Made by a program: the position numbers and the translations under genes. Of a stretch of DNA of 64,000 bases, positions 11,168 to 46,065 are shown piece after piece. The notes beneath the pieces are model-generated. The model was not told the origin of the DNA. It searched no databases and saw nothing but the letters and a program-made list of their open reading frames with translations. Position 1 is the first letter of the stretch, and each line of letters begins with the position of its first letter. The DNA comes from Paenibacillus sp. (GTDB lineage: Bacteria; Bacillota; Bacilli; Paenibacillales; YIM-B00363), in the NCBI RefSeq assembly GCF_035645195.1, contig NZ_DASQNA010000016.1:1-64000 (forward strand), written 5' to 3'.

Positions 11168-11280
11168 TCGCACCCTCGCATCCTTGGCCGGCGCCGCCGG
11201 CCCCGTTTTCCTTATATTAAAACCGAAGTCTCCCCGCATGACCACCGACCACCGACCGGTTGTTTCCGTTCGGCGCAGCA

Positions 11281-11308
11281 AAAAAGACGCCCGAATCCGG
11301 ACGTCTTT
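11281..11308 (-). terminator. Rho-independent terminator (second hairpin after cheY-like gene)
   Basis: On the minus strand AAAGACGTCCGG pairs with CCGGGCGTCTTT with small mismatches and runs into TTTTTTG. It lies downstream of the cheY-like gene and upstream of the OmpR-type regulator gene. Confidence 0.7.
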
Positions 11309-11322
11309 CTGATGCTTCTCGC

Positions 11323-11370
11323 CTAAAAAAAAACGGCAGGCACTCCCCTAAGGGGGCCTCCGGTCTTCTG
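11323..11370 (-). terminator. Rho-independent terminator of the cheY-like gene
   Basis: On the minus strand a GGCCCCCT/AGGGGAGTGCC hairpin is followed by a run of nine T, directly after the stop at 11376. Confidence 0.75.
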
Positions 11371-11375
11371 CAGCC

Positions 11376-11756
11376 TTATTCGGCCAAGGATATCGATGGA
11401 TTCAGCACGCGGGAAATCGCGCCCAGCACGCGCTCGCTCTGGAACGGCTTCAGCACGTAATCCTTCGCCCCGCGGCGCACCGCGCTGACGATCAAATGTT
11501 TGTGCCCGAGCGCCGAGCACATGATGATCTTCGCTTTCGCGTCGTAGCGCACGATTTGCTCCAACGCCTCGATCCCGCCGAGCTCCGGCATGTTGAGATC
11601 CATGATGACGAGGTCGGGACGATGGGCGCGATATTTATCGACCGCCTCCAGTCCGTTGGCCGCTTCCGACACGACCATATGCCCGGCTCTTTCCAGCATA
11701 TCCTTCAACATCAATCGCATAAAGGCGGCATCGTCAACGACCAGAATCGTCGCCAT
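11376..11756 (-). CDS. CheY-like single-domain response regulator
   Basis: The 126-residue protein is a receiver domain only: acidic pair VDDAAFMR, phosphoacceptor in LVIMDLNMPELGG and Lys in YVLKPFQ. The DDAAFMRxMLKD start is typical of CheY proteins of Bacillota. The family binds the flagellar motor switch or works as a phosphate sink. It is monocistronic, with AGGGAG upstream and two terminators after it. No flagellar gene is nearby, but the chemoreceptor at 58.9 kb shows that chemotaxis is present. Confidence 0.9.
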   Translation of the reverse strand: MATILVVDDAAFMRLMLKDMLERAGHMVVSEAANGLEAVDKYRAHRPDLVIMDLNMPELGGIEALEQIVRYDAKAKIIMCSALGHKHLIVSAVRRGAKDYVLKPFQSERVLGAISRVLNPSISLAE

Positions 11757-11837
11757 TCCTCATCACTCCCTTGAGGCCGCAGGTAATGTTTATTTTTCCC
11801 AATTGTACCTCTCCGCGCTGAACAAAAACTGAACAGC

Positions 11838-11866
11838 AAAAAACGACCGCGTTCGACACGGTCGTT
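11838..11866 (-). terminator. Rho-independent terminator
   Basis: AACGACCG (11842-11849) pairs with CGGTCGTT (11859-11866); on the minus strand it ends in TTTTTT, just after the stop of the REC-BTAD regulator. Confidence 0.85.
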
Positions 11867-11870
11867 CTGA

Positions 11871-13001
11871 TTATCCCTTCCCGAGATGGGCTTCGTACCA
11901 AGCGGTGATCTGCTTGTCCGGTTCCTCTCCGGCCTCGTCCCGGAGCGCCTCCTTCAACTGCTCGTACGTCTTCCGCACTTCCTGCGTCTGGCCCTGCCGC
12001 AGGTACATCCGCATCAGGAGGAAGTAGCTTTCCTGTACGGACGGGAAGCGCGCCGAGATGTCGGTAAGCAGCGAGAACGCGATGCTGTTCCACGCCCGTC
12101 CGCCGAGCTCCTCCGCGATCCGCAGCGCGCACTCCAGCCACTTGATGCGCAGCCGTTCCCGCTCCTGCTCCGCCCACCAATAGCCCTCATGCTCGTAATA
12201 ATCGCCGCGATACATAGCGGCCCACGCCTCCGCCTCGCCCGCATGCACCGCGGCGCCGCTCTGCAGCTTGGCTGTTTGGCGCTCCCAGACGTCGACGTCG
12301 ACTGCGACGCCGTTCAGCTCGAGGCGGTAGCCGCCGTCCATGAAGCTGAGCTTGATCGGCAGGTCCAGCGTTTTCACGGTTTGGCGAATTTGATACACCG
12401 TCGTATGCAAGTGCGTATGCGCCTTCGCGAGATCCATGTCGGGCCACATCAAATCGAGCAGCGCGTCCTTGGACACCGTCCGGTCGCGCAAATGCAGCAG
12501 GTAGGCGAACACTTCCTTCGCCTTCGTCGTGCGCCACGGAATTTCCGCGACGCGCCCGTCCTCCGAAGCGACGCCTAGGCGCGAGAAACAATACAGCGCC
12601 GAGACGTTCGCGGCCGGCGCCGGTGGCGGGACGGGGACGGCCCGCTTCATGCGGGACCGCAGCCGCGCCAGCGTCGTTTCGAGCCGCCTCGTCTGCACCG
12701 GCTTCAACAAATAGTCTGCCGCGTTCAGTTCGAACGCGTCGACGGCGTATTGGTCGTACGCCGTCACGAAGACGACCTGGAGCTCCGGCACCGCCTCCAT
12801 CAGCCGCTCCGCGGCCGCCAGCCCGTTCATGCCGGGCATTTCGATATCGATGAACGCGGCGTCGGGCGAAAGCCGCCCCGCTTCCCGAATCGCCGCCAAC
12901 GGATCCGGGAAAGCGCCGATCACCTCGACGTTCTGCCGACGGAGCATGCGCTCCATGCCGGCGAGCGACAACGGTTCGTCGTCCACCACGATCGCTCTCA
13001 T
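11871..13001 (-). CDS. Response regulator with REC and SARP-type (BTAD) domains
   Basis: 376 residues. The receiver domain (1-120) has VDDEP, phosphoacceptor in AAFIDIEMPGMNG and YLLKPVQ. A winged-helix part (about 145-225) contains KAKEVFAYLLHLRDRTVSKDALLDLMWP-type sequence as in SARP and Bacillus SARP-like regulators. The C-terminal ~140 residues form the TPR-like bacterial transcriptional activation domain (YEHEGYWWAEQERERL). The start overlaps the stop of the hybrid kinase by ATGA, making them a coupled pair. Target genes are not evident. Confidence 0.88.
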   Translation of the reverse strand: MRAIVVDDEPLSLAGMERMLRRQNVEVIGAFPDPLAAIREAGRLSPDAAFIDIEMPGMNGLAAAERLMEAVPELQVVFVTAYDQYAVDAFELNAADYLLKPVQTRRLETTLARLRSRMKRAVPVPPPAPAANVSALYCFSRLGVASEDGRVAEIPWRTTKAKEVFAYLLHLRDRTVSKDALLDLMWPDMDLAKAHTHLHTTVYQIRQTVKTLDLPIKLSFMDGGYRLELNGVAVDVDVWERQTAKLQSGAAVHAGEAEAWAAMYRGDYYEHEGYWWAEQERERLRIKWLECALRIAEELGGRAWNSIAFSLLTDISARFPSVQESYFLLMRMYLRQGQTQEVRKTYEQLKEALRDEAGEEPDKQITAWYEAHLGKG

Positions 13002-16000
13002 GCTTCGCCCCCCTCTGCAGTCGGAATGTCGAATCGGACGACGGATCCCCGGCCGTGCGCGGACTCGATCACGAGTCCTTGCCCGTACAAATGCATTAAC
13101 CTTCGATGAATGTTCGTGAGTCCGATTCCGCCCGTATGGCGCCCGGATACGATCGCCTCCGCCGTGCCCAGCGCGAAGCCGATCCCGTCGTCCTCGACGG
13201 AAACGCGAATCGCTCCGTCGATCGGCTCCACCGCGATCGCGACGCGGCCCCCTTCGGGGCGCTTCAGAATGCCGTGCCGCAGCGCGTTCTCGACGATCGG
13301 CTGGATCGACAGCGGCGGCAGCTGGAACGAGGCGAATTCGGGCACGCGCGTTTCGATGCGCATGCGGTCGCCGAACCGGGCACGCTCCACGGACAAGTAC
13401 GATTCAACGAGCGTCCATTCCATCGCGAACGGCACGACGTCGTTCAGGTTGCGCAGGTCGAAGCTGTTTTTCAGGTACACCCCGAAATCGGTCAGCACCT
13501 CGCGCATTCGGTCGGGATCCGTCTCGCTTAGGCTCGCGATCGTATTCAGCGCGTTGAACAAGAAGTGCGGCTTGATTTGCGCTTGGATGAGCGCCATTTC
13601 CATATGCAGCTTCTCGCGCACCGATTGCTTCAGCTGCAGCAGCGTCCGCACGCGCGCCTTCAGCTCCGTCGAATCGACCGGCTTCAGGACGTAATCGTTC
13701 GCTCCCGCTTCGAAGCCCGCCATCAGGTCGGCCGGCTGGCTGCGGGCGGTCAGGAACAGCACCGGCAGCTCGTGGAACGAAAAGCGCCTCCGAATGAACC
13801 GGCACAGCTCGTAGCCGGTTTTCCCCGGCAGCGAGACGTCCAAGATGACCGCATCCCACCGCCGCGAGCCCGTGAGCGCTCGCATCGCCTCGAGGCCGTC
13901 GGAAACCGCCTCGACGCTGTACCGCTCGCTGCGGAGCAGCTCGTACACGACCTTGAGGCTGACCGGATCGTCTTCGACGAGCAGGATGCGAGGCGCGTCC
14001 GCGACCTCCTGCCGGTACGTCTTCTCGGCGACGGCCGGATCTTCCGACTCCTGACGCCGCGCCCAGCTCGGCTCCGCCGCTTGGGCGGCCCCGGCGTCCC
14101 CCGCCGCGGCTTCGTCCGTCGCCTGCGCGGGCGCGGTCGGCAGCGTGAACCGGAATTGCGTCCGTTCCCCCGGGACGGATTCGACCTCGATCTCCCCGCC
14201 CTGCAGGCGAACCAGCTTCTTCGTAATCGCGAGGCCGAGCCCGGCCCCCTTCGGCGCGGCCTCGCCTTCCGCGTAGCCTTGCCGGAATTCCTCGAAGATC
14301 ACCTCTAGCTTTTCCGGCGGAATCCCTCTCCCGTCGTCGGTGACCGACACGCGGACCGAAGTCCCCAAATCTTCGGCTTCCACGACGACCGTCGAGGCGT
14401 TCGCGTGTTTCATCGCGTTGTGGATGAGATTGAACAAAATTTGCATGACGCGCTGATCGTCCGCCCATACCCGCGGCAGCCGCTCCCCGACCCGGTTCTC
14501 GAGCTTTACCGCCGTATGCTCCGTCACGTAAGGCAGCAGCTCCCATACGCCGTCCACGGCCGTGCGCAGATCGACCGCCTTCAAGTCGGCCTGCAGCGTG
14601 CCCTCGTTCAAGCGGGACAAATCCAAGATATCCTCGAGCAAATGGGACAGATGGCGTCCGGTTGAAACGATGAGCCGAAGCCGTTCGGCCTGGCGCTCTT
14701 CGGCGACCCCTTCGTCGAGCGTCACCTGCGCCATATTGATCATGCCGTGCAGCGGCGTGCGAAGCTCGTGGGACGTGTTCGCCAAAAATTCCGTCTTCAT
14801 GCGATCCGCCCGTTCGAGCCGCCGCGACGCCTCCTCGACCTGCTTCAAGTTGTCGAAAAACCGCTGCGCCAGAAGCACGCCCATCGAGACGACGAAGACG
14901 AGCATTTCGAACGGGAAGAATACGTTCGAGGGCTGCAGGCCGACGAAGGTCAATCCGACGAACAAGTGCTCGTAGAACAAACACAACGCCCCGATGAGCG
15001 CATACACGGACTCCTGCTTGAGCGAGATGATGCCGGCCAGCAGCCAGCCTAAAATATATAAAGAAAACAGTCCCAAAAACATGATGATGACGAGCTCGAG
15101 CCTCGTAAATTCATAGACTTCCGAGAACAAACAGAGGATCGACAGGGCGGATAGCACGGTCAAAATCGTCCGCACGACCCAAGGCGCATAATATTTCGGG
15201 AACAAATGCCTGACGAACAGCAGCATCGAGATGTAAATCAAAACGGCGGACAAAAACTGCAATTTGCTTTGCCATTCGTACGGAAGCGACGGCCACCAAA
15301 CGAAAAGCAGCTTCTCTCCGTGCGTCAGCGCGAACGTGACGTACGATACGAAGAAGCCCCCGAACCAGAGCAGCTCCGGATTTTGCCGGCGCATCGCGTA
15401 CATCGCGGCGAACAGCACCCCGAACACCAAGAAAGCGGTGTCGATGGCGTACTCCACCATTTTCTCGGCTTGCGCTTCCTGGACGATGCTCTGCAGCGTG
15501 CCGAGATGGAACGTGTCGAAAATGCCGCCTTGGAAGCCGTAGTGGAAGTTCGCGACATGCACCGTAATCCACAGCTCGGCGCCGCGCACGGGCACCTCCG
15601 CGACATACGGCGTATTTTGCGGCGCCGTCGTCTCGCGCGACACGCCCGGCGAGCCGCTCCCGCCGACCGGTTCGCCCGATACGAACAGCCGATGCGCGGA
15701 GCGCACGTTGGACGACCGAATCGCGAGCGCGGCCCGCCCGGCGTCCTCTTCGGACAGCAGCACGCGCAGCTGATACGTGCCGAACCCGAACGTCGACGCC
15801 CCGCCTGGGGAGATCGCCCGATCCCACCCCCCGGGCACCTGCATCGCGATCGGTTCTGACTGGTCATATGGACCTAAAGGATTGACGTACGAATGAGGAT
15901 AAAAGTTCCATTCGCCGTCCAGGCGAACGATCCCGTCCTCCCCCAAGTCCCAATCCCTTAAATCAAGCACGCCGTCGTCCGCCTTCAGGGAAGGCGCATC

Positions 16001-25984: not shown

Positions 25985-26248
25985 TTATGAATTTCCTTTC
26001 TCCATATATTCTTTGATCTTTCGTTCCTTCCAGGAAGAAGCCCGCCCGTGGGCGAAGACGCTCAACCCGTGAGCAGCGAGCCCGATGCCCCAGCCGAACA
26101 ACGGATAGACGAACCACCACGTGCCATTAACGACGTTCAGAAGAATCAACCCGATATTGATGATGACATATACCGCCAGATGCTGATAAAATTCCGCCAG
26201 CTTTTTCACTTGCGCGTGCGCTTCTTCATACGTTACCCGATTGTTCAT
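25985..26248 (-). CDS. 2TM-domain small membrane protein
   Basis: 87 residues with two adjacent helices (about 23-42 and 46-66). The pattern EEAHAQVKKLAEFYQHLAVYVIIN followed by NGTWWFVYPLFGWGIGLAAHG is the 2TM domain, often found next to or fused to regulators and kinases. Its start overlaps the end of the Lnt-like gene by 23 bases. Function unknown. Confidence 0.85.
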   Translation of the reverse strand: MNNRVTYEEAHAQVKKLAEFYQHLAVYVIINIGLILLNVVNGTWWFVYPLFGWGIGLAAHGLSVFAHGRASSWKERKIKEYMEKGNS

Positions 26249-27812
26249 GGTTCAACGCTCCATTCTTTCGATGATTAAATTTAGCCGATCCGATCAACCC
26301 TAGCGCAAACACCAAGCATCCCCAAGCGAACCAATCGCCCCAAGCGGCATATAGCGTCCCGCCCGTTCCCTGCGGGCTCAACTGAACGACCAGCGCCTTA
26401 TCCTCGCTCGTGCTGTGCCGCATGCCCCCTAGCTCGTTCCCGAGCGCGTCGACCGCCAAAGAGTACGTGCCGCTCGTCTGCCGCAAGAGGGAGTACCCGT
26501 TCTCGATCGCCCGAAACATGGCCATATGCGTATGCAAAGGTTCCAGCTCCGCCCATTCGTTCGAAGGGACGAACATGAAGTCGACATTCAGCCTGCCGGC
26601 TTCGCGCATCAGCTCCGGGTGATCCGCATCGAAGCAGATCGCGATGCCCATCCTCCCGTAAGGGGTATCCAGCGTATGGACGCCGTCCCCCGCCTTGTAC
26701 GCCTCCGCCTCCCAACCCGGCACTTGGATCGTCTTCACGTACACGTCCGCCAACCGGCCGCTGGGATCGAACGTCAACTGCTTGATTTCATCCTGCTTTT
26801 CGCTAGATGCCATAATTTCATTGACCCCGGCGAGCAAGTAAATACTCTCTTCCTTCGCGACGGCCGCAGCTTTCGCCATGAATCGTTCCATATCCGCCTC
26901 CAATACCGGGGCGTTCGCCTCGGCCCACACGACGAACCGCGCTCCCGCCCGGGCCTCCAGACGCGTTCGGTCGAGCAATTCGTCTTGGTTTGCGATGGTA
27001 CGCTCCCGGAACTGCGCCAGCTCCTCGGCGCTCAGTCGCCCTCTGACCGCTTCGCTGGCTTGGCGCTTGAAACCATCCTCGGCCTGCAGCGTCAAGGCGG
27101 CTACCCGGACGGCCGGGGCGGACGGCCGGAGCGCGAGAAGCTGCGCGGAGCCGGCCAGAAGAATCGCCGCAAGCACGGCCGCATAAAGCGTCGCCCCAGT
27201 CCGAATCGCAACCCACCGTCGGCGCCGCGCCCAACACCAGCTGCCGGCGGAGGCTCCCCACATGATCATGAAGGTCATTCCCCATAATCCTGTGAAGCGG
27301 GCTAGCTGCATGAATGGGAGATTGCCGTATTGCGTGTAAGCCCAAGAGCCCCAAGAACCGAACGGGCTGAGCGAGGCCGCCGCATACTCCAGGGCGACGT
27401 AAGCCGTCGGGAACGCCAGCGTCGCCATAAATCCCGGCAGCCGGCGAACCGCCCACCGGTCAAGCAGCATCGGCATAAGAAAAAATGCGCCGAAGCCGAT
27501 GCAAAACGCCGTAAACCCGATCCCGTCCAGTGGAATGACTCCGCGGAAGGACGCGTACGTCGCCGCCGCGACGACGGCCGCCGCCGCCATGGGTGCGGTC
27601 GCCCCTTGGCTTCTTCTCATAAAATGAAGCATCAGCATCGGGGCCAGCCAGGCGGCCAAAGGGAAGATCCATTTTCCGTGCGCGAACAGCCATAGCAATC
27701 CGGCGGCGCCTAAAATCAGCGCATCGACTATCAACCGCTTTACGGTTACGCGCCTTTTTTCGGCGTTTCCCCGTAATACCTCCTCTTTTTGTGATCCTGA
27801 CAACGTCGTCAT
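26226..27812 (-). CDS. Lnt-like membrane nitrilase (apolipoprotein N-acyltransferase family)
   Basis: 528 residues: about seven membrane helices (to ~residue 225), then a nitrilase domain. The candidate triad is E298 (VVWAEANAP), K360 (YVKTIQVPGWE) and C393 (IAICFDADHPE), matching the Lnt arrangement Glu-Lys-Cys; CFD replaces the usual CYE. Lnt adds the third acyl chain to lipoproteins in Gram-negatives and is classically absent from Bacillota, so the substrate here is open. ATG 27812 sits directly on AAGGAG; TTG 27803 with a 9-base spacing is an alternative start. It leads the unit with the 2TM, TetR and DUF4188 genes. Confidence 0.8.
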   Translation of the reverse strand: MTTLSGSQKEEVLRGNAEKRRVTVKRLIVDALILGAAGLLWLFAHGKWIFPLAAWLAPMLMLHFMRRSQGATAPMAAAAVVAAATYASFRGVIPLDGIGFTAFCIGFGAFFLMPMLLDRWAVRRLPGFMATLAFPTAYVALEYAAASLSPFGSWGSWAYTQYGNLPFMQLARFTGLWGMTFMIMWGASAGSWCWARRRRWVAIRTGATLYAAVLAAILLAGSAQLLALRPSAPAVRVAALTLQAEDGFKRQASEAVRGRLSAEELAQFRERTIANQDELLDRTRLEARAGARFVVWAEANAPVLEADMERFMAKAAAVAKEESIYLLAGVNEIMASSEKQDEIKQLTFDPSGRLADVYVKTIQVPGWEAEAYKAGDGVHTLDTPYGRMGIAICFDADHPELMREAGRLNVDFMFVPSNEWAELEPLHTHMAMFRAIENGYSLLRQTSGTYSLAVDALGNELGGMRHSTSEDKALVVQLSPQGTGGTLYAAWGDWFAWGCLVFALGLIGSAKFNHRKNGALNHEQSGNV

Positions 27813-27939: not shown

Positions 27940-29865
27940 TCAACCGGCTTGCTCTTGATGCGGGACGAGTCCGAGCCGTACCGCCTTCTCCACTGCTTGG
28001 TCGCGGTCCTCCGCGTTAAGCTTGGCATAAATGCCGGACAAGTAATTACGCACCGTTCCTTCCGACAGAAACAGACTTGAGGCGATCTCCCTGTATTTTT
28101 TCCCTTTGGCCAGCAGCTCGAGAATTTGCAGTTCCTTCTCCTTCAGACCGTATTCCTTCATCACGGCTTGCGAAACATACTTTCTCTCCAACCGCTCCAA
28201 CTGAGCGCCCCGCAGCACTTGGCTGGCGAGCATCGCCGTCGTTTGGCGGGACAGCAGCGTCCCGCCGTCCATCAGATGGCGGACGGAAGCCGCTAAGTTC
28301 CTCGGGTTCATGGACTTCAATAAATACGCATCCGCCCCGGCTTCGACAGCCTCCGCGACGATTCCAACTTCGTGGCGGTGGGTGAACAGAATGATTTGGA
28401 TTCCCGGATTCGCCGTTTTGATCGACCGCATCACCTCGATGCCGTCCATGCCGGGCAGGTTGACCTCCATCAGCACGACGTCGGGACGTTCCCGCCGGCA
28501 ATAATCGACCGCTTCCGGACCGCCGTCCAACGCCCCGGCAATGACGATGTCGTCCTCTTCTCCGAGGATGAGCGCGACGCTCTCTCGGACGAACGGGTCG
28601 GGATCGACCAGCAGCACCGCGATGCGGTTCGCCCTCTCCTGCGGGACCGGCAGCGTGATGTCCCATACGCTCCCCTTGCCTCGGAACGATTTTATATCAA
28701 ATGTGCCGTTCAGTTCGGTACATTTCTTGTGAAGCGGCTCCGCCGCCTCCATGCGGCCTTCCCCCGGTTTGCCCCCATTGTCGGTTAACGTCAATCGAAC
28801 GACGCCAGATCGATACTCCAGCGCCGCCTCCACATCCGACGCTTGTCGATCCATGGCCGCCCCGATCATGAAATCCTGGAGCGCCCGCAGCAGCGTGACA
28901 TTATGCGACCGCGGCAACGCGTACGGCTCTCCTTCCGCGCGAACCGCCACTTCCATGCCCGTCGTTTCCTGAAATCCCACAGCCCGTTCCCGAAGCTCGG
29001 CTTCTAAGCCGTCCTGCGACACGAAGCCCTCTTCGACGCCGGCGAGACGTTCGACAACGTCGTCGATGTCCTTCCATATTCGGACCGCCGCGTTTTCTAA
29101 CGACTCTTGTCCGGGTTCGCCCTGCTTCTCCCTCGCCGCGCGCGCCAGTTGTTTCAGTTCTTGCCGAAGGCTTGCGCCGATCCTGCCGCGTTCCTCCCGC
29201 TTGGCTAACGTTTCCACCTGCCTGGCATAGGTTTCGAGTACTTTGTTCTGCCGTTCGATAATGCGCAGCTGCGTTTCGTTCTCCCGAAGGAGCCGGGCAA
29301 GGCGGTCTTTCGTTTCCACGATAATCGCGTAGCTGGTGCCGATTTTGGAAGAAGCCCACAGCACCAACGTCGTTTCGGCCAAAATGCCTATTGGGATATT
29401 GATCGTACTGGGCTCCAGGTAATGAAAACCCGTTCGATGAAAAGCGGCGCCCGCGACGGCGGTAAACAACAAAGAAATCGCGCCGACATATAAGGTCAAT
29501 CGCCCGTTCAAATAAATTAGCGTCAAAGCCAAATTAAAATAAAACACTTGATAAACGGCCGGAAGCTCGCGAAATAAGACGGCCTGATTCATCGCGTGCA
29601 GCAACAGCAGCGTCATCATAATATACTTGAACGCACCCTCCAACCGTTCGATCCGGTTGAGAACGAGCCCCAACGAAAAAATCGATGCGGATGCGCCGAA
29701 AAAAATGAGATGCTCCCGACTGAGCGGTTCATGATTGATGAGAACGTTCGCTTCCGCCAGCGCGTAGGTTAGCCCCACGACAAAAAGCAGCAAGTGGTTT
29801 CGATGCTTCTCCCGCTCCAAATGGCGAAAACAATGGTTTTTAATCCAGTTCAACAAAGCGATCAC
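27940..29865 (-). CDS. Membrane pseudokinase-receiver-LuxR fusion regulator
   Basis: About 641 residues from GTG 29865 (GAGGTG 6 bases upstream; GTG 29874 is an alternative). Six or so membrane helices (about 25-175), a coiled coil, a HisKA_3-like region, a degenerate HATPase, a receiver and a NarL/FixJ-type HTH (LKEKELQILELLAKGKKY...GTVRNYLSGIYAKL). The phosphoacceptor His position reads Arg (RIGASLRQE), the N-box Asn region reads LQDFMIGAAMD, the receiver acidic pair is DP (LLVDPDP) and the phosphorylated Asp is Glu (VVLMEVNLPG, codon GAG). The receiver Lys remains (YLLKS). It probably works without phosphotransfer. It is divergent from the DUF3231 gene. Confidence 0.88.
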   Translation of the reverse strand: MIALLNWIKNHCFRHLEREKHRNHLLLFVVGLTYALAEANVLINHEPLSREHLIFFGASASIFSLGLVLNRIERLEGAFKYIMMTLLLLHAMNQAVLFRELPAVYQVFYFNLALTLIYLNGRLTLYVGAISLLFTAVAGAAFHRTGFHYLEPSTINIPIGILAETTLVLWASSKIGTSYAIIVETKDRLARLLRENETQLRIIERQNKVLETYARQVETLAKREERGRIGASLRQELKQLARAAREKQGEPGQESLENAAVRIWKDIDDVVERLAGVEEGFVSQDGLEAELRERAVGFQETTGMEVAVRAEGEPYALPRSHNVTLLRALQDFMIGAAMDRQASDVEAALEYRSGVVRLTLTDNGGKPGEGRMEAAEPLHKKCTELNGTFDIKSFRGKGSVWDITLPVPQERANRIAVLLVDPDPFVRESVALILGEEDDIVIAGALDGGPEAVDYCRRERPDVVLMEVNLPGMDGIEVMRSIKTANPGIQIILFTHRHEVGIVAEAVEAGADAYLLKSMNPRNLAASVRHLMDGGTLLSRQTTAMLASQVLRGAQLERLERKYVSQAVMKEYGLKEKELQILELLAKGKKYREIASSLFLSEGTVRNYLSGIYAKLNAEDRDQAVEKAVRLGLVPHQEQAG

Positions 29866-29877
29866 TCCGCTCACCTC

Positions 29878-29895
29878 AGTTTACAAAGGTAAACT
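29878..29895. promoter_or_regulatory. Palindrome upstream of the sensor-LuxR gene
   Basis: AGTTTAC-AAAG-GTAAACT, 7-bp perfect arms, lies immediately upstream of the ribosome site within an AT-rich stretch containing TATAAT-like hexamers. It is a candidate autoregulatory operator. Confidence 0.45.
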
Positions 29896-30038
29896 TATAA
29901 ACAATTATTAATTATACGTCCGGTCATTCCGTTTTGTCATTCTCTTTTTCGCTTATCATCCGTCCGGCTGCATACACTCCGCCGTTCCGGCAAAAGCTAC
30001 CGCGTAAACGAATCCATTTTTGCTGCGGAGGAAGACCC

Positions 30039-37171: not shown

Positions 37172-38113
37172 TTATTCCGTCTTGACCTTCTCCCCGTACT
37201 CGCGCACGATGTCGAACACGCTGTCTTCGGAAACGACGTAGCCTTCATGCGAATAGATTTCCTTGATGATCGCATGGCCTTCTTCGTCTTTGCCGATATC
37301 GATGAACGCGTCTTGAATTTTCTTCACCCATTCCTCATCCATGTCCGACCGGACGGAGACCGTATCGTTCGGAATCGGCTCCGTGAACGTCAGCACGCGC
37401 GTGTCTTCGAAGACCGTCGGGTAATCGTTCTTGACGATGTTCCGGGCGTCTTGGAAAATCGCCGCCGCGTCTACGTCGCCGTTCAGGACGGCGAGGACGG
37501 CTTGGTCGTGGCCCTTCAGCGTGACGCTTTCCACGTCCTGCAGCGGGTCGACGCCTTCTTCCAGCAGCTTGCCTGCCGGCCATACGTAGCCTGCGGAAGA
37601 CGTGACGTTTTGGTAGCCCATCTTCTTGCCTTTCAGGTCCGCGACGCTTTGAATGTCGGAATCCTTCTTGACGATGATCATCGCTTTGTAGAAATCGACG
37701 AGGTCCTCCGTCGGCGCGCCCGTATCGTCTTGGACGCCGAAGCGCTGCGCCTGCAGGATGACTTCCGCGGCGCCCTTCTCCTTCGCGAGCACGTAAGCCG
37801 TCGGCGGCAGGAAGCCGACGTCGACTTGCTTCGAAGCCATGGCCTCGATGATCGTGTTGTAGTCGGTGGAGACGCTCACTTCGACCGGAATGCCGAGGCG
37901 TTCGCCGAGCAGTTCCTCGAGCGGCTTCGCTTTCGCTTCGAGCGTGTCCGCGTTCTGGGACGGGACGAATTGGACGGTCAGCTTCTCCGGCGCGTAGCCG
38001 GCTGCAGCCGCGCCGCCGTTCTCCGCGTCCGTTGCGGCGTTGCTGGCGCAGCCGACGGCGAGACCCGCGACGACGGCGAGCGGCAGCATCATTTTTGCGA
38101 TGTTACGGTACAT
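37172..38113 (-). CDS. phnD: Phosphate/phosphite/phosphonate ABC transporter substrate-binding lipoprotein
   Basis: 313 residues. Lipoprotein signal with lipobox LAVGC (Cys at about 22). The mature part has [39 protein letters not shown] and the PhnD-specific [13 protein letters not shown] with the ligand-binding Ser-Ser. Ligand could be alkyl-phosphonate, phosphite or hypophosphite; no C-P lyase or ptx gene lies in the window to decide. First gene of phnDCEE. A PhoP-box-like triple repeat lies 80-108 bases upstream. Confidence 0.92.
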
Positions 38114-38193
38114 TCGGTTTCTCTCTCCCTGGATTTGTTTTTTTTCCACGTTAGACAAGGTATCACATTTAGTTGGGACAAGTTCCCAATGTT

Positions 38194-38221
38194 TGTAAAA
38201 CCGGGATGAAGGTTTTGTAAA
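38194..38221 (-). promoter_or_regulatory. Candidate PhoP box between phnD and the metallophosphatase
   Basis: On the minus strand TTTACA (38216-38221), TTCATC (38205-38210) and TTTACA (38194-38199) are each 11 bp apart, matching the TT(A/C/T)ACA repeats with 5-base spacers bound by PhoP dimers in Bacillus. It could serve phnD and, divergently, the gene at 38301. Confidence 0.55.
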
Positions 38222-38300
38222 TCCCCTGGCGGCGTTCCCGTTTTGGTATATGCTTCTATTTGGCGAAACTTGGAATGGGAAATTAGAGGAGGAATGGCGA

Positions 38301-39932
38301 ATGGGAGCGGACGAGAATTCCCTTACGATAGACATTTTGGTCACCAGCGACCTTCACGGGCACTTGTTCCCGACCGATTACCGCAGTTCGGAGGAGCGCC
38401 CTTTCGGCTTGGGCAAGCTGGCGGCGCTGATCGAGCGGGAACGGAGGGGCGCAGAGGCAACGCTGTTGATCGATAACGGCGATTTGCTCCAAGGGTCGCC
38501 TCTCGCTTACTACTGCGCCAAGCTGGCCGGCGGCGGGGAGCATCCGTGCGTGGCGGCGCTGAACCGGCTGCGGTACGATGCGGCCGTAATCGGCAACCAC
38601 GAGTTCAATTACGGCCGCGCGCTGCTGGACCGCGCCGTCCGGGACGCGGCGTTCCCCTGGCTGTCGGCTAATACGGTCGACCTCGCGACGGGCGGGCCCG
38701 CGTTCGGGAAGCCGTATATCGTGAAGACGTTCCGCGGCGGCGTCAAGGCGGCAGTGCTCGGCGTTACGACGCATTATGTGCCGAACTGGGAGCAGCCGGA
38801 GCATATCGAAGGGCTCGAATTCCGGGACGCGCTGTCAGCGGTGAAGCAGTGGGCGGAGTACATTCGGCGGGAAGAACGGCCGGACGTCCTGATCGTCGCC
38901 TACCACGGCGGCTTCGAGCGCGATCTCGAAAGCGGGCGTCCGACGGAGCCGGACACCGGGGAAAATCAAGGCTATGCCATGCTGCTGGAAGCGGCGGGCA
39001 TCGACGTGCTGATTACGGGGCATCAGCACCGGTCGATCGCCGCGGTCGTTCGCGGCGTCGCCTGCGTGCAGCCAAGCTGCAACGGCCAAGCGCTCGGGAA
39101 GGTCAGCGTGACGCTGACGCGAAGGGACGGCGGCTGGACCGTTGCGCGCAAAGACGTTCGGCTGCTCGAGCCGAATGCGGAGACGCCGGCGGACGTAGAC
39201 GTGCTGTCCGTCGCGGACGAGCTGGAGCGGCGGACGCAAGCGTGGCTGGACCAGCCGCTCGGCGTCGTCGAGGGCGCCATGTCGATCGCGGATCCGATGG
39301 CGGCGCGGGCCGAGGAGCATCCGTTCATCGAGTTCGTCAACCGGGTGCAGATGGAGGCCGCGTCGGTCGACATTTCCTGCACTGCGCTGTTTGCGGACGA
39401 ATGCCGCGGCTTCGGCGAACAGGTGACGATGCGCGACATCTTGGGCAACTATATGTTCCCGAATACGCTCAAGGTGCTTCGGCTGTCCGGCCGGGACATC
39501 CGCGCCGCCTTGGAACGCTCGGCGGCATATTTTACGGTCGGTGCGGACGGCCGGCTTTCCGTGCATCCGTCGTTCCTCGCTCCGAAGCCGCAGCATTACA
39601 ACTACGATATGTGGGAAGGCATCGACTACCGCTTGGACGTCTCGAAGCCGGTCGGCGAGAGAGTCGTTATGCTGGAGCGCCATGGCCGGCCGATCGACCC
39701 GGATGCATCCTACGACGTGGTCATGAACAATTATCGCGCGGCCGGCGGCGGCGAGTACCCGATGTTCCGGGATAAACCGGTCGTGAAAGAGATCCCTTTC
39801 GACATGGTGGAGCTGCTGGCGAACGCCATCATGGAACGGCGCGTCGTGGTCGCGGCGTGCAATCGGAACTGGGCCGTCGTGTATGGAGCGTCCGCGAGCC
39901 CGCCCGTTCCCTGCGTCCAAACAAAACTTTAA
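38301..39932 (+). CDS. Bifunctional metallophosphatase/5'-nucleotidase, cytosolic type
   Basis: 543 residues. The metallophosphoesterase domain has DLHGHLFP, DNGDLLQG, GNHEFNYG and GHQH (the two-metal site); the C-terminal 5'-nucleotidase domain has YMFPNTLKVLRLSGRDI and a substrate-stacking NYRAAGGGEYP. Unlike secreted UshA/CpdB it has no signal peptide, as in YunD. ATG 38301 has GAGGAGG 9 bases upstream; an earlier in-frame ATG is rejected. Divergent from phnD, suggesting a joint role in phosphorus salvage. Confidence 0.92.
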   Translation: MGADENSLTIDILVTSDLHGHLFPTDYRSSEERPFGLGKLAALIERERRGAEATLLIDNGDLLQGSPLAYYCAKLAGGGEHPCVAALNRLRYDAAVIGNHEFNYGRALLDRAVRDAAFPWLSANTVDLATGGPAFGKPYIVKTFRGGVKAAVLGVTTHYVPNWEQPEHIEGLEFRDALSAVKQWAEYIRREERPDVLIVAYHGGFERDLESGRPTEPDTGENQGYAMLLEAAGIDVLITGHQHRSIAAVVRGVACVQPSCNGQALGKVSVTLTRRDGGWTVARKDVRLLEPNAETPADVDVLSVADELERRTQAWLDQPLGVVEGAMSIADPMAARAEEHPFIEFVNRVQMEAASVDISCTALFADECRGFGEQVTMRDILGNYMFPNTLKVLRLSGRDIRAALERSAAYFTVGADGRLSVHPSFLAPKPQHYNYDMWEGIDYRLDVSKPVGERVVMLERHGRPIDPDASYDVVMNNYRAAGGGEYPMFRDKPVVKEIPFDMVELLANAIMERRVVVAACNRNWAVVYGASASPPVPCVQTKL

Positions 39933-39996
39933 CACCGCGGAAAAAATTCCCTCTGTATAATGGGAGCTGTAAATTTACCCATGCAGAGGAGGAATC

Positions 39997-42120
39997 ATGA
40001 TGTTGTTTCGAAAAGGCATGCTCGCGCGTGCCGGCAGAGCGGCGCTCGCCGTTCTGTTGTCCGTCGCCGCCGCCGCGGGGCTCGCGGGACAAGCCGTTCC
40101 GGCGTTCGCCGAAGGGCCGGAAGATCCGGCCCCGGTGCTGCTCCCGGTCGGAACGGCGAACGGCAAGAAGGTGCTGTTCGACAATACGCACGGCCAGACG
40201 GCCGGCGCGGCGGATTGGGTCATCGACGGCGCCTTCTCCGATTTCGGGAACGCGCTCGCGGCCGAAGGGTATTACGTCGCCGAGCTGCGGAAGTCGACGC
40301 CGATCGCGCTGAGCGATCTGTCGGACTACGACGTCTTCGTCATTCCGGAGGCGAACGTACCGTACAAAGCCAGCGAACAGGCGGCCCTGCTGCAGTACGT
40401 GCAGGACGGCGGAAGCATCTTCTTCATCTCCGATCACTACAACGCAGACCGCAACAAAAACCGTTGGGATTCTTCGGAAGCGTTCAACGGTTACCGCCGC
40501 GGCGCATGGACCGACCCGACGAAAGGCATGAGCGCGGAGGAAGCCGGCTCCGACGCCATGCAGGACGTCGTCAGCTCGGATTGGCTCGGGCAAAACTTCG
40601 GCGTCCGCTTCCGGTACAACGCGCTGAATCACGTGACGGCCAACATCATCGTCGAGCCGTCCCAGTCGTTCGGCATCACGAGCGGCGTCTCCGCCGTCGC
40701 CATGCACGCAGGCTCGACGCTCGCCATTATGGATCCCGAGAAGGCGAAAGGCATCGTGTACGTGCCGACGAACCCGGAGCCTTGGCCGCACGCGGTCGAT
40801 CAAGGCGTGTACGAGAACGGCGGCATCGACGAGGGCCCGTATGCGGCCATCGCGAAGGTCGGGCTCGGCAAAGCCGCGTTCATCGGCGACTCGTCGCCGG
40901 TCGAGGATGCCACCGAGAAATATGTCCGCGAAGATACCGGCGGCGGCAAAACGACGTACGACGGATTCCTCGAGCTCGACGACGCCGAGCTGCTCGTCAA
41001 CATCGTCAACTGGCTCGCGCAGCAGGAAAATTATACAAAGCTGTCCGAGGTGCCGGGTTTGCAGTTAGACCAGCCGACGTCGCTCCTACCTATGGAGGAT
41101 CCGGCGGCGTCCACCGAGCCGGAGCCGGAACCTTGGGCGGCGCCGCCGGCCGGCTACAAATGGTGGGATCGCTGTACGTTCAAGGCCGGCTCTTACGGCT
41201 ATAAGTCTTGCGGCGGGGGCGGGGGCGGCGGTACGCCGACGGGCGGCCTCTTCATCTCCGAATACGTCGAAGGCGGCAGCTACAACAAAGCGATCGAAAT
41301 TTACAACGGCACCGGCGCGTCCATCGACCTGTCCGGGTACGCGATCGCCCAATCCAACAGCGCGTCCGACATCGCGCTCAGCGGCACGGTAGCCGCCGGT
41401 GACGTATTCGTGCTGGCGCATGCGTCGGCGTCGTCCGCGATTTTGCATGTCGCCGACCAAACGTCTTCGGCCATCGTGTTCAACGGCGACGACGCGGTCA
41501 CGCTCAAGCAAGGCGGGACGATGCTCGACGTCGTCGGCGCGGCGGGCGCGTCGTTCGGCGCCAACAAGACGCTCGTCCGGAACGCCGACGTCGCGTCCGG
41601 CACGACCGTATACGACGCGGCGCAATGGACGGCGCACCCGCAGGACACGTTCTCGTACTTGGGATCGCATACCGTCGCCTCGACGCCGGCGCTCGCCGAA
41701 ACCTACGAAACCGGGTCCAAGGGCGCCTACGCCGACGGCAGCGTCGCGCTTTCGTCCGGCACGTGGTGGTTCGCGAACGCCTTGATCGGCAACCTGAGCA
41801 GCGATAAGAAAACCGGCGCGCAAGCCGCCCGGATTCGCGCCGCGGGCAGCATCGCCATGAGCTTCGACGTCTCCTCGGCGTCGACCGTCTCGCTTTCGGT
41901 CGCGAACTTCGGCAGCGACACCGGCGCGACGTGGAAGCTGCAGAAGTCGACGAACGGCGGCTCGAGCTGGACCGACGTCACGTCCGCCGCCTCCGCGACG
42001 TCCTCGCTGGTCAGGCACACGATCGCGGTGAACGAGACGGCGCCGGTGCGCTTCCGCATCGTCGCGGGCGGCACGTCCGGCCAACGCATCAACGTAGACG
42101 ACTTCGAAATTTATCAATAA
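39997..42120 (+). CDS. Secreted protein: GAT-like domain, Gly-rich linker, lamin-tail domain
   Basis: 707 residues. Sec signal (1-38, cleavage after AFA). Residues about 50-350 form a class-I glutamine-amidotransferase-like/DUF4350-type fold (VLFDNTHGQTAGAADWVIDG, DVFVIPEANVPY, GGSIFFISDHYN). An aromatic motif YKWWDRCTFK and a run of seven Gly lead to a lamin-tail domain (about 408-550: LFISEYVEGGSYNKAIEIYN), then a beta-rich C-terminal domain (RINVDDFEIYQ). Lamin-tail domains occur in secreted nucleases and phosphoesterases, but no nuclease motif is seen. AGAGGAGG precedes the ATG; ATG 40000 is equally possible. Exported, unknown role. Confidence 0.8.
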   Translation: MMLFRKGMLARAGRAALAVLLSVAAAAGLAGQAVPAFAEGPEDPAPVLLPVGTANGKKVLFDNTHGQTAGAADWVIDGAFSDFGNALAAEGYYVAELRKSTPIALSDLSDYDVFVIPEANVPYKASEQAALLQYVQDGGSIFFISDHYNADRNKNRWDSSEAFNGYRRGAWTDPTKGMSAEEAGSDAMQDVVSSDWLGQNFGVRFRYNALNHVTANIIVEPSQSFGITSGVSAVAMHAGSTLAIMDPEKAKGIVYVPTNPEPWPHAVDQGVYENGGIDEGPYAAIAKVGLGKAAFIGDSSPVEDATEKYVREDTGGGKTTYDGFLELDDAELLVNIVNWLAQQENYTKLSEVPGLQLDQPTSLLPMEDPAASTEPEPEPWAAPPAGYKWWDRCTFKAGSYGYKSCGGGGGGGTPTGGLFISEYVEGGSYNKAIEIYNGTGASIDLSGYAIAQSNSASDIALSGTVAAGDVFVLAHASASSAILHVADQTSSAIVFNGDDAVTLKQGGTMLDVVGAAGASFGANKTLVRNADVASGTTVYDAAQWTAHPQDTFSYLGSHTVASTPALAETYETGSKGAYADGSVALSSGTWWFANALIGNLSSDKKTGAQAARIRAAGSIAMSFDVSSASTVSLSVANFGSDTGATWKLQKSTNGGSSWTDVTSAASATSSLVRHTIAVNETAPVRFRIVAGGTSGQRINVDDFEIYQ

Positions 42121-42123
42121 GAT

Positions 42124-42162
42124 GAAAAGCGGGAGCGCCGCGATCGGCGCCCCCGCTTTTTT
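42124..42162. terminator. Rho-independent terminator, bidirectional
   Basis: AAAAGCGGG-A-GCGCCG-CGAT-CGGCGC-C-CCCGCTTTTTT, a long near-perfect stem between convergent genes. Confidence 0.92.
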
Positions 42163-43217
42163 CATTTTTTCACGCTGTTTAACAGCTCCATCATCAGCCG
42201 GTACGGCAAGCTCGGCTGCGCGACCTGATTGACCGTCCCGGCGAAATAAACGTCCTTCGCGGGGCAGTAGTACGCGAAGGCGCCGGACAGCCCGGAATGC
42301 CCGATCAGCTCGGGAAACAGACGAAACATCGTAAAGACGCGAGGCATCTGAAATTTCGCGACGCCTACGCCGTATTGCAGCGGGAAAAAGATGCGGTTCC
42401 ATGCGTACAGCGACGGCAGCGCCGATTTCGCAAACAGCCTTCCCTCGAAGAACCCCCGCAAGAACGCCATCAATTCGTCCGCGGTCGACACGATGCCGCC
42501 GTCCGGACCGAAGGACGCCATCGCCTGCGGAACATGCAGCGGTGCGTCGTTGCAATACAGCGGCACGTCCGGATCGTCTCCGTCGTTACGGAACAGATAG
42601 GTGTTCTCTAGCCCGAGCGGTTCGTAGACGTACGAGCGGAACGCCTCTTCGACGGTGCCGCCTGTCGCATGCTCGATGATCTTCCCCAGGAGCTGATAGT
42701 TCGTGTCGGAATAATGTGCCTTCCCCGGGGTCCCGGGGGCAAAATGCGGCTTCAACCGTTTGGCGTCTTCGACCGCCTGCTCGAACGTCCACGCCCGGTC
42801 GCGTCCCGCCTGGATGTGCTGCAGCAAGCTCTTCCCGTCGTCGCGTGCAGCTTGGAAATAATCGGGCAGCCCCGACGTATGCGCCATCAGCTGCCGAATC
42901 GTCAGCTTGAACGATTCGTCCTTCCCGTTGTACCGATGAATCCCTTCGAGCGCGCCGCGGTCGACGTAATCCGCCGCCGGATCGTCCAGCCGCAGCCGGC
43001 CCAGCTCCTGCAGCTTCAACAACGACGCCGTCACGTACAGCTTGGTGGCGCTGGCGATGAAGAAGCGGCTGTTCCGCTCGACGCCGCCCGCCGCCCCGCA
43101 CCACGAAAGCGAACCGTCGCCGGATTCGACTCTGGCAACCGCGCCGATAATCAGTTTGTGGGCCGTCGCTTTTCGGAACGCCCGCTCCAATCTCTGCTCC
43201 GTAGGCCGTTCGGCCAT
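42162..43217 (-). CDS. Serine beta-lactamase-like hydrolase (class C/esterase family)
   Basis: 351 residues. The Ser-x-x-Lys box is SATK (FFIASATKLYVTA), the Tyr motif YSDTNYQLLG and the third motif HSGLSGAF. No signal peptide is visible, so it is likely a cytoplasmic esterase, peptidase or amidase of this fold rather than a true beta-lactamase. ATG 43217 has AAGGAGGG; an upstream in-frame extension is rejected. Monocistronic, sharing the terminator at 42124. Confidence 0.88.
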   Translation of the reverse strand: MAERPTEQRLERAFRKATAHKLIIGAVARVESGDGSLSWCGAAGGVERNSRFFIASATKLYVTASLLKLQELGRLRLDDPAADYVDRGALEGIHRYNGKDESFKLTIRQLMAHTSGLPDYFQAARDDGKSLLQHIQAGRDRAWTFEQAVEDAKRLKPHFAPGTPGKAHYSDTNYQLLGKIIEHATGGTVEEAFRSYVYEPLGLENTYLFRNDGDDPDVPLYCNDAPLHVPQAMASFGPDGGIVSTADELMAFLRGFFEGRLFAKSALPSLYAWNRIFFPLQYGVGVAKFQMPRVFTMFRLFPELIGHSGLSGAFAYYCPAKDVYFAGTVNQVAQPSLPYRLMMELLNSVKK

Positions 43218-43301
43218 ACCCGCGTCCCTCCTTGCTCTCGCCCGTTCTGATCCTAGCGCTAATCTTACTTCCGCGGGCCGCGTTTGCAAGTGAAGTTTTC
43301 G

Positions 43302-43991
43302 TTAATCGCCGATGCCGGTGTCTCCGACGTAATGCGCGAACAACGTTTCCACCGGCTTGAAATATAAGTATCCGTCGTCCTCCCACGGCTGGAAATGCAG
43401 GTCCATCCGCGAGTCGGTCCAAGGATCCGGCGTCCCCTTCGTCCGCAGACGGCCCGGCACGACGGGCGGCTCGACCGTTTTCGGAAACTCCTGATATCCG
43501 AACAGCAAATTTTCGTGCATGGCGATGATTTCGTACTTATCGCCGTGGAACGCCCGTTCCTCTTGCAGCTGATAATGGTAGTAAATATAGCTTGCGGCCA
43601 TTTCGGGCAACAGATGCGCGACCCGGCCGCCGCGCCGCTCGACGGGCTGCTTGCGCAGCCAATGCTCGTAGCTCGCCGGTTCGTTGAAATGAAAGACGTC
43701 GATCATCTCGATCCAATACCGCGGCTCCTCCCGTCCCGGCCATTCCGCCAGAAACGGAGCAGCCTCGGCGGCGACCTCCTCGGGCGGCACGTCCCGCGTC
43801 ACGCATTCGTAGTAGAGAAACAGGTTGCTCTTCCATGCGAACGCGGCCGCCGTCATCAGCTCGCCGGACGAGACGAGCGCCCGCGCCGCCGCGCCGTCCC
43901 CCAGCGCCGCGCGGCCGGCGGCTTCGTTCCCTCGCGCCCACGCCGCGCGATATATTTTCCTCCGGATCATGACCCTCAGCTCCCTATTCAT
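43302..43991 (-). CDS. Unknown protein cotranslated with the STAND-LuxR regulator
   Basis: 229 residues, soluble. Recurring aromatic/acidic patterns (NLFLYYECVTRDVPPEEV, EEPRYWIEMIDVFHFNEP, FQPWEDDGYLYFKPVETLF) suggest an alpha/beta barrel related to mutarotase or monooxygenase-like dimeric folds, but no family is certain. Its ATG lies inside the end of the LuxR gene (8-base overlap), so the two products are made together; MIRRK at 43970 is an alternative start. It is a plausible effector or enzyme partner of that regulator. Confidence 0.7.
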   Translation of the reverse strand: MNRELRVMIRRKIYRAAWARGNEAAGRAALGDGAAARALVSSGELMTAAAFAWKSNLFLYYECVTRDVPPEEVAAEAAPFLAEWPGREEPRYWIEMIDVFHFNEPASYEHWLRKQPVERRGGRVAHLLPEMAASYIYYHYQLQEERAFHGDKYEIIAMHENLLFGYQEFPKTVEPPVVPGRLRTKGTPDPWTDSRMDLHFQPWEDDGYLYFKPVETLFAHYVGDTGIGD

Positions 43992-46065
43992 TGTTCCTTT
44001 CGACTCCGACGGACCGGACGCCCGAGGCCACCGCCTTAATCAGCGCGCCGCGGTTTTTCAGTCCCGTCTTCTGGAAGATCGACGTCAAGTGCTTCTTCAC
44101 CGTCACCTCGCTGACGAACAGCCGCTCCGCGATTTCCGGATTCGTCAGCCCTTCGGCCACCAAATCGACGACCTCCAGCTCCCTCGCGGACAGCTGCCCC
44201 GACAGGCCGGACGGCGCCGGCGCGGCCGGCTCGGGGGCGGCCTCCCCCGCCGGCGCCAAATCGGACACGAGCCGCTTCAAGTACGCCCCGAGCCGCGGCC
44301 CCCGCGTGTCGAGCACGAACGTCGGCGCCGGCGTCCGCCCGTCGTAATCCCGGTGGTACAAGTCCGGCATCTCTTCGAAACCCAAACCGCGGTATACGTC
44401 CTGGAACAGCGGCACCGGCGGCGGCGACACGACGATGAGCCCGCCCCGCAGCAGCAGCGAGAACAGCGCCTGGAACGACGTGAACGTTCCCTGCGGATCG
44501 CCCGGCCGCGCCACGTTGACGCCGCGAACGAACCAGCCCGCCGGCTGCGAGCGCGGCGTCCGCAGCGCCGCCTCCTGCTCGGGCGTCCGGCTCTCGAAAT
44601 ACGCCCGCGAATACGGCTGGCTGCGCAAATAATCGAACGTCCCCTCATGGATCGGGACGATCGCGTAAAACCCGGCGATGTCGCCCGCCGCGTCCCGATA
44701 CAGCCGCACGGCGTCCGGCTCCAGCGCGAGCATCTCCTCGAAGTCGATCGAACGGATGACGGGAGCCTCCTTATCGACATGGAACGACAGATCGATCTCC
44801 TCGCCCGATTCCGGATCGACCCACCGCTCGCGGTGCAGCCCCGCCTGCGCGCCCCAGCGCTCCTTGTAGGCCGTCGCTTCCGCGACGTTCTCGGCGCTGA
44901 GCGGCTCTAGGTAATAAGAAGCATATGTCAGATGCTTGTTCATGTACGCCCGCATGATGGAGCTGCCGAGATAGCCGACCATCTCCGCCATCTCCCACGC
45001 CATCGATTCTTTGCGTTTCGACCCGACGATACGCTGATAGTAATGGCGCGCGATCCGCCCCACCAGCCGCTGATACAGCTCCGGGGAACGCAGCCGCAGC
45101 TGCTTCGCGACCGCTTCCCGGACAAGATCGTGCACCATCCAACCCCGTTGCGTCGTCCGCACGAACGACAAGCCGGCCAGGCGCTCGAATTCCGCCGCGT
45201 CGACCGGCCGGCCGAGCGCCGCCGACAGCGTCTCTTGGTTGAAGCTGCGCAGCGCCGCGGCCGCCTCCGTCAGCTCCCGGAGCGGCTCCGGCACCTCCCG
45301 CAGCCATACCTCGGCGAGCGACAGCGACAGCTCGGAGTCGCCCGCGAAGCCGCCTTCGTCCGCCGCTTCGTCTTGCCGGATCCGATAATAGTGCGCCGCG
45401 AGCGACAGCGACAGCGGATGCCCTTGAGTCCGCAGCAGAATGGAGGCGACGACCGCCGGGTCTTCCACCCCCTGCCGCAGCAAATACGCCTTCGCCTCCT
45501 CCGCCCGGAGCTGCCCGAGCGGCATGCGCAGCGTCACCTGCCGCCACGCCGGAGATGTCACCCAGCCGCCGCGCAGCGAATGACGCCCCGCCAGCACGAG
45601 CGCGATGCGAATATCGAGCATCGGCAGGAACGTCTCCCGCAGCCAATGCTCGAGGTCGCCGAATTCCTCGAACGTGTCGAACGCGAGGAATACCTTCCGG
45701 CGATTCGCCTCCTCGTTCAGCCGCCACACCGCGTAAGCGATGCCTTCCTCCCCGGCAGCCTCTCCGCCGGCAGGCGCCGCGAGCGCGGCGAGCCTGCCGT
45801 GCAGCGCGCGGCCCAAATCGTCGGGAGAATGGTGGAAATCCCGGCTGTCCAGCGCGAGAAACAGCGCGCCGCCGTCGAGCGCCATCCGCTCGAACCGGCC
45901 GAGCAGCGTGCTCTTGCCCATGCCCCCCGTACCGTAAATGTTGAGGATGCGCACATCCTCCAGCTCCCCGCGCAGCAGCCGGGCGAACTTCGCCGTCTCC
46001 TGCTCGCGTCCGACGAAAAACCGTTCCTCCAAGGCGTCTATGCGGTTGCGAAACCGTTCGCTCAC
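43984..46065 (-). CDS. STAND-ATPase LuxR-family regulator with GNAT-like middle domain
   Basis: 693 residues from GTG 46065 (GAGGGTGGGAG upstream). An N-terminal AAA/NACHT-like ATPase has Walker A GTGGMGKST (about 45-53), Walker B KVFLAFDTFEE (about 123) and a winged-helix segment (MVHDLVREAVAKQLR). Instead of the TPR superhelix of MalT, residues about 435-605 look like a GNAT acyltransferase fold (DAAGDIAGFYAIVPI, FQDVYRGLGFEEMPDLYHRDYDG). The C-terminal HTH is LSARELEVVDLVAEGLTNPEIAERLF. Likely a ligand-activated one-component switch. Divergent from the cupin gene. Confidence 0.85.
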   Translation of the reverse strand: MSERFRNRIDALEERFFVGREQETAKFARLLRGELEDVRILNIYGTGGMGKSTLLGRFERMALDGGALFLALDSRDFHHSPDDLGRALHGRLAALAAPAGGEAAGEEGIAYAVWRLNEEANRRKVFLAFDTFEEFGDLEHWLRETFLPMLDIRIALVLAGRHSLRGGWVTSPAWRQVTLRMPLGQLRAEEAKAYLLRQGVEDPAVVASILLRTQGHPLSLSLAAHYYRIRQDEAADEGGFAGDSELSLSLAEVWLREVPEPLRELTEAAAALRSFNQETLSAALGRPVDAAEFERLAGLSFVRTTQRGWMVHDLVREAVAKQLRLRSPELYQRLVGRIARHYYQRIVGSKRKESMAWEMAEMVGYLGSSIMRAYMNKHLTYASYYLEPLSAENVAEATAYKERWGAQAGLHRERWVDPESGEEIDLSFHVDKEAPVIRSIDFEEMLALEPDAVRLYRDAAGDIAGFYAIVPIHEGTFDYLRSQPYSRAYFESRTPEQEAALRTPRSQPAGWFVRGVNVARPGDPQGTFTSFQALFSLLLRGGLIVVSPPPVPLFQDVYRGLGFEEMPDLYHRDYDGRTPAPTFVLDTRGPRLGAYLKRLVSDLAPAGEAAPEPAAPAPSGLSGQLSARELEVVDLVAEGLTNPEIAERLFVSEVTVKKHLTSIFQKTGLKNRGALIKAVASGVRSVGVERNNE

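Follow-up and report, generated by a model that had tools for sequence, protein, structure and literature searches.

The 64,000-nucleotide stretch of Paenibacillus DNA analysed here (the window) carries on its minus strand a gene whose single product joins a membrane sensor, a histidine-kinase-like region, a receiver and a LuxR-type helix-turn-helix (HTH) (Table 1). The frame is open across 644 codons (27940-29874), and the GTG at 29865, which has GAGGTGA just upstream, is most likely the better start; it agrees with the gene end given in an earlier reading of the letters of this DNA (the sequence-only reading). With a promoter-like site 46-75 bases before this start and a hairpin with a T run after the stop codon, the gene probably forms a transcription unit of its own; in the scanned region the numbers of such sites do not clearly exceed those in shuffled sequences, either for promoters (6 versus 3.5 +/- 2.0) or for terminators (8 versus 7.3 +/- 2.6). 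Third-position GC is 0.69, slightly under that of three neighbours (0.73-0.83). With the ATG at 30039 taken as the start of a DUF3231 gene, 29866-30038 is a divergent intergenic region of 173 bases, in which a perfect 7-base inverted repeat (AGTTTAC/GTAAACT, 29878-29895) is either a candidate regulator site or a chance occurrence. Elsewhere in the window, 26226-27812 encodes an apolipoprotein N-acyltransferase-like protein (LNT_N and CN_hydrolase) in this genome of Paenibacillus kin, scoring 107.3 bits and thus under the NCBIfam lnt cut-off of 132.9, and four consecutive receiver-like stretches on the minus strand at 10823-14011, one of them with stops, suggest that receiver genes or hybrid kinase genes are clustered there.

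Table 1. Coordinates of the fused regulator gene, its domains, its motif sites and its flanking signals in the window.
Feature	Position	Strand	Basis and remarks
Whole gene	27940..29865	minus	GTG start, 641 aa; membrane sensor + pseudo-histidine-kinase + pseudo-receiver + LuxR HTH
DUF4077 membrane domain, six predicted helices	29338..29850	minus	Pfam; AlphaFold2 helices
Coiled helix and DHp-like region (HisKA_3 position)	28975..29334	minus	Alignment; AlphaFold2 helix 152-247
His site, R234 (CGG)	29164-29166	minus	Alignment and codon check
HATPase-like region	28639..28974	minus	Predicted fold (AlphaFold2) and alignment; N-box Asn and ATP-lid glycines lost
N-box Asn site, G335 (GGG)	28861-28863	minus	Alignment and codon check
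Pseudo-receiver domain	28282..28617	minus	Pfam Response_reg, about 2.5e-24
Acidic pair, D421-P422	28600-28605	minus	First position kept, second is Pro; codon check
Phosphoacceptor site, E467 (GAG)	28465-28467	minus	Alignment and codon check
LuxR/GerE helix-turn-helix	27985..28140	minus	Pfam GerE, 1.9e-14
Sigma-70-like promoter	29911..29940	minus	ATGACA-18-TATAAT, 11/12; consensus match only
Terminator-like hairpin with T run, immediately past the stop codon	27916..27938	minus	Consensus match only

Pfam places DUF4077 at residues 9-179 (3.1e-24), Response_reg at residues 420-531 and GerE at residues 579-630, all in the 644-codon numbering. There is no Pfam match to HisKA_3 or HATPase at E <= 0.1 in this protein, and the kinase-like region is detectable solely through alignment to relatives and in an AlphaFold2 model. 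The model, built with an input of 45 sequences (mean pLDDT 77.9, pTM 0.34; domain placement unreliable), predicts membrane helices at 19-44, 50-71, 79-97, 102-116 and 121-145 and a sixth from 152, which continues as one helix to 247 into the DHp position; a HATPase-like fold, a receiver and an HTH are predicted after it. Sensor, DHp, CA, receiver and HTH all lie in one frame, the kinase part by alignment and model only. The domain order of the sequence-only reading is confirmed in all its parts, with the proviso that the kinase-like ones are visible only by these two routes, and its six membrane helices are present in the model but clearly marked for only four in a crude hydropathy scan. The best Foldseek matches are the full-length NarL-type regulators VraR, ChrA, LiaR and DesR, of which only some were solved in the activated state; whole chains superpose poorly (target TM 0.54-0.64) and the receivers alone fit closely.

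The motif sites of Table 1 are numbered on the protein of 641 residues, and their codons were checked directly. The kinase region was aligned first with four DUF4077 fusions and one kinase of its own genome, and later with 83 other fusions. The letters read earlier are right: the His is Arg (RIGASLRQE), the N-box Asn is lost (LQDFMIGAAMD), the acidic pair is DP and the phosphoacceptor Asp is Glu (VVLMEVNLPG). The claim that every phosphotransfer residue has been replaced went too far, however, as D421 (the first acidic residue), T495 and K517 are kept in the receiver, and the alignment finds the G1-box Asp and Gly kept in the kinase-like region. Alignment with relatives also shows the ATP-lid glycines and about 10 residues after the His site to be absent. 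A D-x-x-x-H stretch following the His serves HisKA_3 enzymes as phosphatases, and in the alignment this stretch too is missing. We considered a sequencing frameshift as the source of the lost motifs and rejected it: each motif is flanked on either side by sequence that aligns in frame, and no H-box turns up when the DHp stretch is read in its two other frames.

As far as the sequence itself tells, then, domain order and losses can be read off directly. The phosphorylatable His and Asp of hybrid single-chain two-component systems are absent (R234 and E467), and with no Pfam match to HisKA_3 or HATPase_c and with the H-box, N-box and G2 box lost, the protein falls outside the functional HisKA_3 kinases. 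It belongs with the pseudo-receivers, or aspartate-less receivers, by its Response_reg match with Glu at the Asp site, and with the NarL/LuxR-type DNA-binding regulators by its GerE HTH. Because donor, acceptor, N-box and lid are all lost, no route for His-Asp phosphotransfer within the protein is evident, and it is very probably incapable of it.

DUF4077 is rare, occurring at E <= 1e-3 in 2 of 8 genomes of the family and 10 of 392 of the order, and at 1e-8 in 3/104 and 3/394 genomes of two other families and in 1/299 genomes of the phylum (the window's own), in samples that overlap. Seven of the matching proteins, the window protein included, are histidine kinase-receiver-LuxR fusions, and four are chemoreceptor-like, as recognised from their tail. 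Fusions are present, for example, in Paenibacillus thermotolerans, P. planticolens, P. alginolyticus and Cohnella lubricantis; we judge that of P. thermotolerans YIM B05602 to be the same-genus one. Four of the five other congeners searched gave no DUF4077 match, one of the four being only 81% complete. Since His, Asn and Asp are intact in all six other DUF4077 fusions, parsimony places the losses on the lineage of the window, and its protein looks like a lineage-specific pseudokinase and pseudoreceiver, the losses being restricted to this lineage among those sampled.

No conserved neighbourhood was found around these genes. None of nine neighbour proteins in the window matches the six DUF4077 loci (one of only 3.5 kb), apart from a weak NmrA match in L028. 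A CPBP/Rce1-like membrane protease gene lies near the fusion in three of six loci with longer flanks (L027:8291-8950, L030:8115-8777 and L127:5171-5821; mutual identity 42-50%); L028, L029 and L130 have none near the fusion, the flank of L029 being under 1 kb on one side. This gene is absent from the window, and in the same genome seven stretches covering all 8 PF02517 matches hold none like the three at E <= 1e-4. The protease is a possible target or processing partner.

Single-chain fusions of kinase, receiver and LuxR domain are common in the order to which the window protein belongs. A profile of five DUF4077 fusions, the window protein included, matches 124 of the 392 order genomes at E <= 1e-90; among the matches listed, most are single frames of about 600 codons and some are adjacent kinase and regulator genes separated by stops. 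Part of the listed matches was fetched (the loci of the order search and 60 further stretches), leaving out of the counts identical sequences, frames shorter than 550 codons or not spanning both ends, and separate kinase/regulator pairs. In the first alignment, of 84 distinct single-frame fusions, the His is kept in 83, the Asp in 83, the N-box Asn in 80 and the lid glycines in 83, and the second acidic residue is Asp in 78. With 13 fusions added later, twelve from a class-wide search and one from the DUF4077 search, the values become 96/97 for His, 96/97 for Asp, 93/97 for the N-box Asn and 91/97 for the second acidic residue, and the sole exception at both His and Asp is the window protein. 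A Pfam scan of 45 fusions (the window protein, five other DUF4077 fusions and every second one of the remainder, one short frame omitted) finds HisKA_3 in 44 and HATPase_c in 44; the window protein is the one with neither. Five other fusions (L094, L100, L103, L109 and L124) are partly degenerate, three with the N-box Asn changed to Thr or His and the second acidic residue to Gly, two with the second acidic residue changed to Asn; all five keep His and phospho-Asp.

The sequence-only reading had linked fusion with loss. That link is not supported: fusion is common in the order, and all other fusions examined keep His and Asp. Homologues that mostly keep both residues are what that reading had itself named as its refutation, which thus applies to the family. 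The sample was mostly drawn with a profile of four live members plus the window protein, or with the window protein itself, and covers part of the matches listed, by which dead fusions could be missed; the DUF4077 search is independent of the kinase region. A class search with the protein, in which 17 of 398 genomes matched at 1e-60, gave besides the protein itself only partial-length matches of 31-36% identity, and no full-length relative above 34% identity was found in six genomes of the genus. A hidden class of dead fusions among weaker matches was rejected as far as it was checked. Twelve genomes have their best match between 1e-90 and 1e-97, and in all five that were searched again this match has an internal stop, with kinase and regulator in separate frames. 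The frames inspected were those of seven of eight loci (all except L154), and L157, with a regulator match in a 660-codon frame, passed nothing through the motif filter.

A gene that has lost so much might simply be in decay, its role gone, its constraint relaxed and its open frame a residue. In a tree of the cytoplasmic part of 19 fusions (six with DUF4077 and 13 others), the window protein stands next to its five DUF4077 relatives, which group at support 100, on a branch of 1.66 substitutions per site that is long enough to be misplaced, compared with 0.11-0.42 in the relatives. Distances from the window protein to the relatives, divided by those among the relatives, are 2.35 for the membrane domain, 3.85 for coil and DHp, 2.48 for CA, 3.16 for the receiver and 2.57 for the HTH; every domain is thus faster than in relatives, DHp most, and as receiver and HTH are among them, relaxed constraint is possible. 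The absence of DUF4077 from most congeners searched and the unconserved neighbourhood also favour decay. Against it, 641 codons contain no stop or frameshift where neutral drift yields several: in 200 simulated runs starting from this gene, with substitutions but no indels and no selection, a mean of 2.5 stops had arisen by 90% identity and 7.4 by 70%, and the runs still free of stops numbered 12 at 90%, 2 at 80% and none at 70% or lower. Given a stop-free frame despite such divergence, we infer that selection maintained the frame along most of the branch; full-length relatives are only 31-34% identical, which puts selection after the losses beyond the reach of dN/dS. Pfam still recognises the HTH and the membrane domain, and GC is lowest at the second codon position in each of the five domains, as expected of coding DNA. 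Mean identity to the relatives is 35% for the membrane domain, 28% for DHp, 25% for CA, 35% for the receiver and 50% for the HTH (47-52% to the five DUF4077 relatives). Even with evolution this fast in all domains, an uninterrupted frame that still encodes the HTH and the membrane domain speaks against simple decay, which we regard as rather unlikely.

The protein could instead serve as a decoy or partner, its pseudo-receiver and HTH forming heterodimers with a live regulator of the NarL type, for example that of contig C51, or competing with it for DNA. Among receiver-LuxR paralogues in the genome, the C51 regulator is the closest to the window protein (42% identity over residues 417-632); its paired kinase has intact motifs, and WhiI and BldM are known to form mixed dimers (PMC12632262). 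A protein tethered by a kinase-like helix of its own should, however, tend to pair with itself, and the two genes lie on different contigs, so that such a role seems unlikely. The C51 pair itself (37500-45000) has CPBP-type membrane protease genes on both sides. Some phosphate control might also survive, with the receiver still modified or the kinase-like region binding nucleotide as its sensor, and the kept G1-box Asp and Gly, D421, T495 and K517, and the predicted HATPase-like fold fit this; with the His and the stretch after it, the N-box Asn, the lid glycines and the Asp all lost, we consider it very improbable.

On balance, we think that the protein is probably a phosphorylation-independent, membrane-tethered transcription factor descended from a live single-chain histidine kinase-response regulator. 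The anatomy of a tethered factor is present, with membrane sensor and HTH in one chain (Pfam, AlphaFold2), and the parts still recognisable are those needed for membrane seating and DNA binding; the pseudo-kinase may act as a dimeric lever. The ancestor would have been an ordinary membrane-bound regulator of the DesK-DesR/NarL type that lost phosphate transfer at both ends on its own branch. For the present protein we infer a dimer that binds DNA while tethered: a cue within the membrane or at its surface would be sensed by the DUF4077 domain and relayed along the long helix of the inactive kinase dimer, changing how the pseudo-receiver and LuxR domains pair or are exposed on DNA. With Thr and Lys still in place, the Glu that replaces the phosphoacceptor Asp may keep the receiver active-like, with the membrane domain and dead kinase acting as a brake.

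Mimicry of phosphorylation by Glu is plausible because Thr and Lys are kept. Whether Glu at this site mimics phosphorylation depends on the protein (PMC12632262, PMC4395418). Glu is the commonest replacement in aspartate-less receivers (26%), an Asp-to-Glu change alone is often insufficient, and ChxR still bound DNA when its Glu was replaced by Asp or Ala (PMC4395418). That a single lineage remade the fusion as a transmembrane transcription factor free of phosphate, with a dead kinase lever, a Glu-locked receiver and direct membrane-to-LuxR sensing, we offer only tentatively. The phosphorylation independence proposed by the sequence-only reading is thus tenable for this one protein, very probably without His-Asp transfer and with membrane and DNA-binding domains kept, but not as a trait of the family, and release from the membrane gained no support from this analysis.

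Among known systems, the fusions of the same order share the domain order, and in six of them the homology, DUF4077 sensor included, extends over the whole length; all those sampled keep His and Asp, and the remaining motif residues are kept by nearly all, whereas the window protein has lost them. A profile of 45 fusions finds DesK to be the closest solved kinase, and VraR/LiaR, DesR and NarL the closest solved regulators; DesK-DesR differs in being two separate proteins with live phosphotransfer. The Bacteroides HTCS carry an AraC-type HTH. They likewise combine a membrane kinase with a DNA-binding regulator in a single chain, and in the cited passages one of them, BT4236, has Gln for the kinase His and is suggested to be phosphorylation-independent (PMC11253607). 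BT4236 is the nearest precedent we have seen, but it comes from an unrelated lineage, and only the His change is reported in those passages (PMC11253607), compared with both ends in the window protein. Fused regulators need a means of silencing the HTH; in HTCS, according to the same passages, a receiver-HTH contact keeps it quiet, and substitutions there gave phosphorylation-independent binding (PMC11253607). ChxR resembles the window protein in having Glu at the Asp site, and DNA binding without phosphorylation is reported for it (PMC4395418, PMC3960148). It differs as an OmpR/PhoB-type regulator without a fused kinase or membrane part. DivL is not known to have a DNA-binding domain. It has a kinase fold without kinase activity that is used as a sensor module, but differs in binding a phosphorylated regulator, DivK (PMC4211667).

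Among the titles and abstract openings listed from the open-licence literature, none reports a regulator with DUF4077, or a single-chain one in which both His and Asp are missing; the domain's name occurs in 2 papers of that literature. According to the sections of a 2025 review cited here, 0.3% of HisKA_3 domains lack the His (56/16,025) and 2.0% of receivers lack the Asp (3,111/152,269) (PMC12632262). Joint loss should be rare given these values, although losses within one chain are not independent. The complete loss looks unusual, the one-chain architecture itself is common, and the dead version has so far been seen in one lineage. Intact relatives carrying the same sensor allow a direct comparison between the live and the dead form of one architecture. 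The switching of bacterial pseudo-receivers is termed a mystery in the same sections of that review (PMC12632262), and a pseudo-kinase and a pseudo-receiver together in one chain bear on this question.
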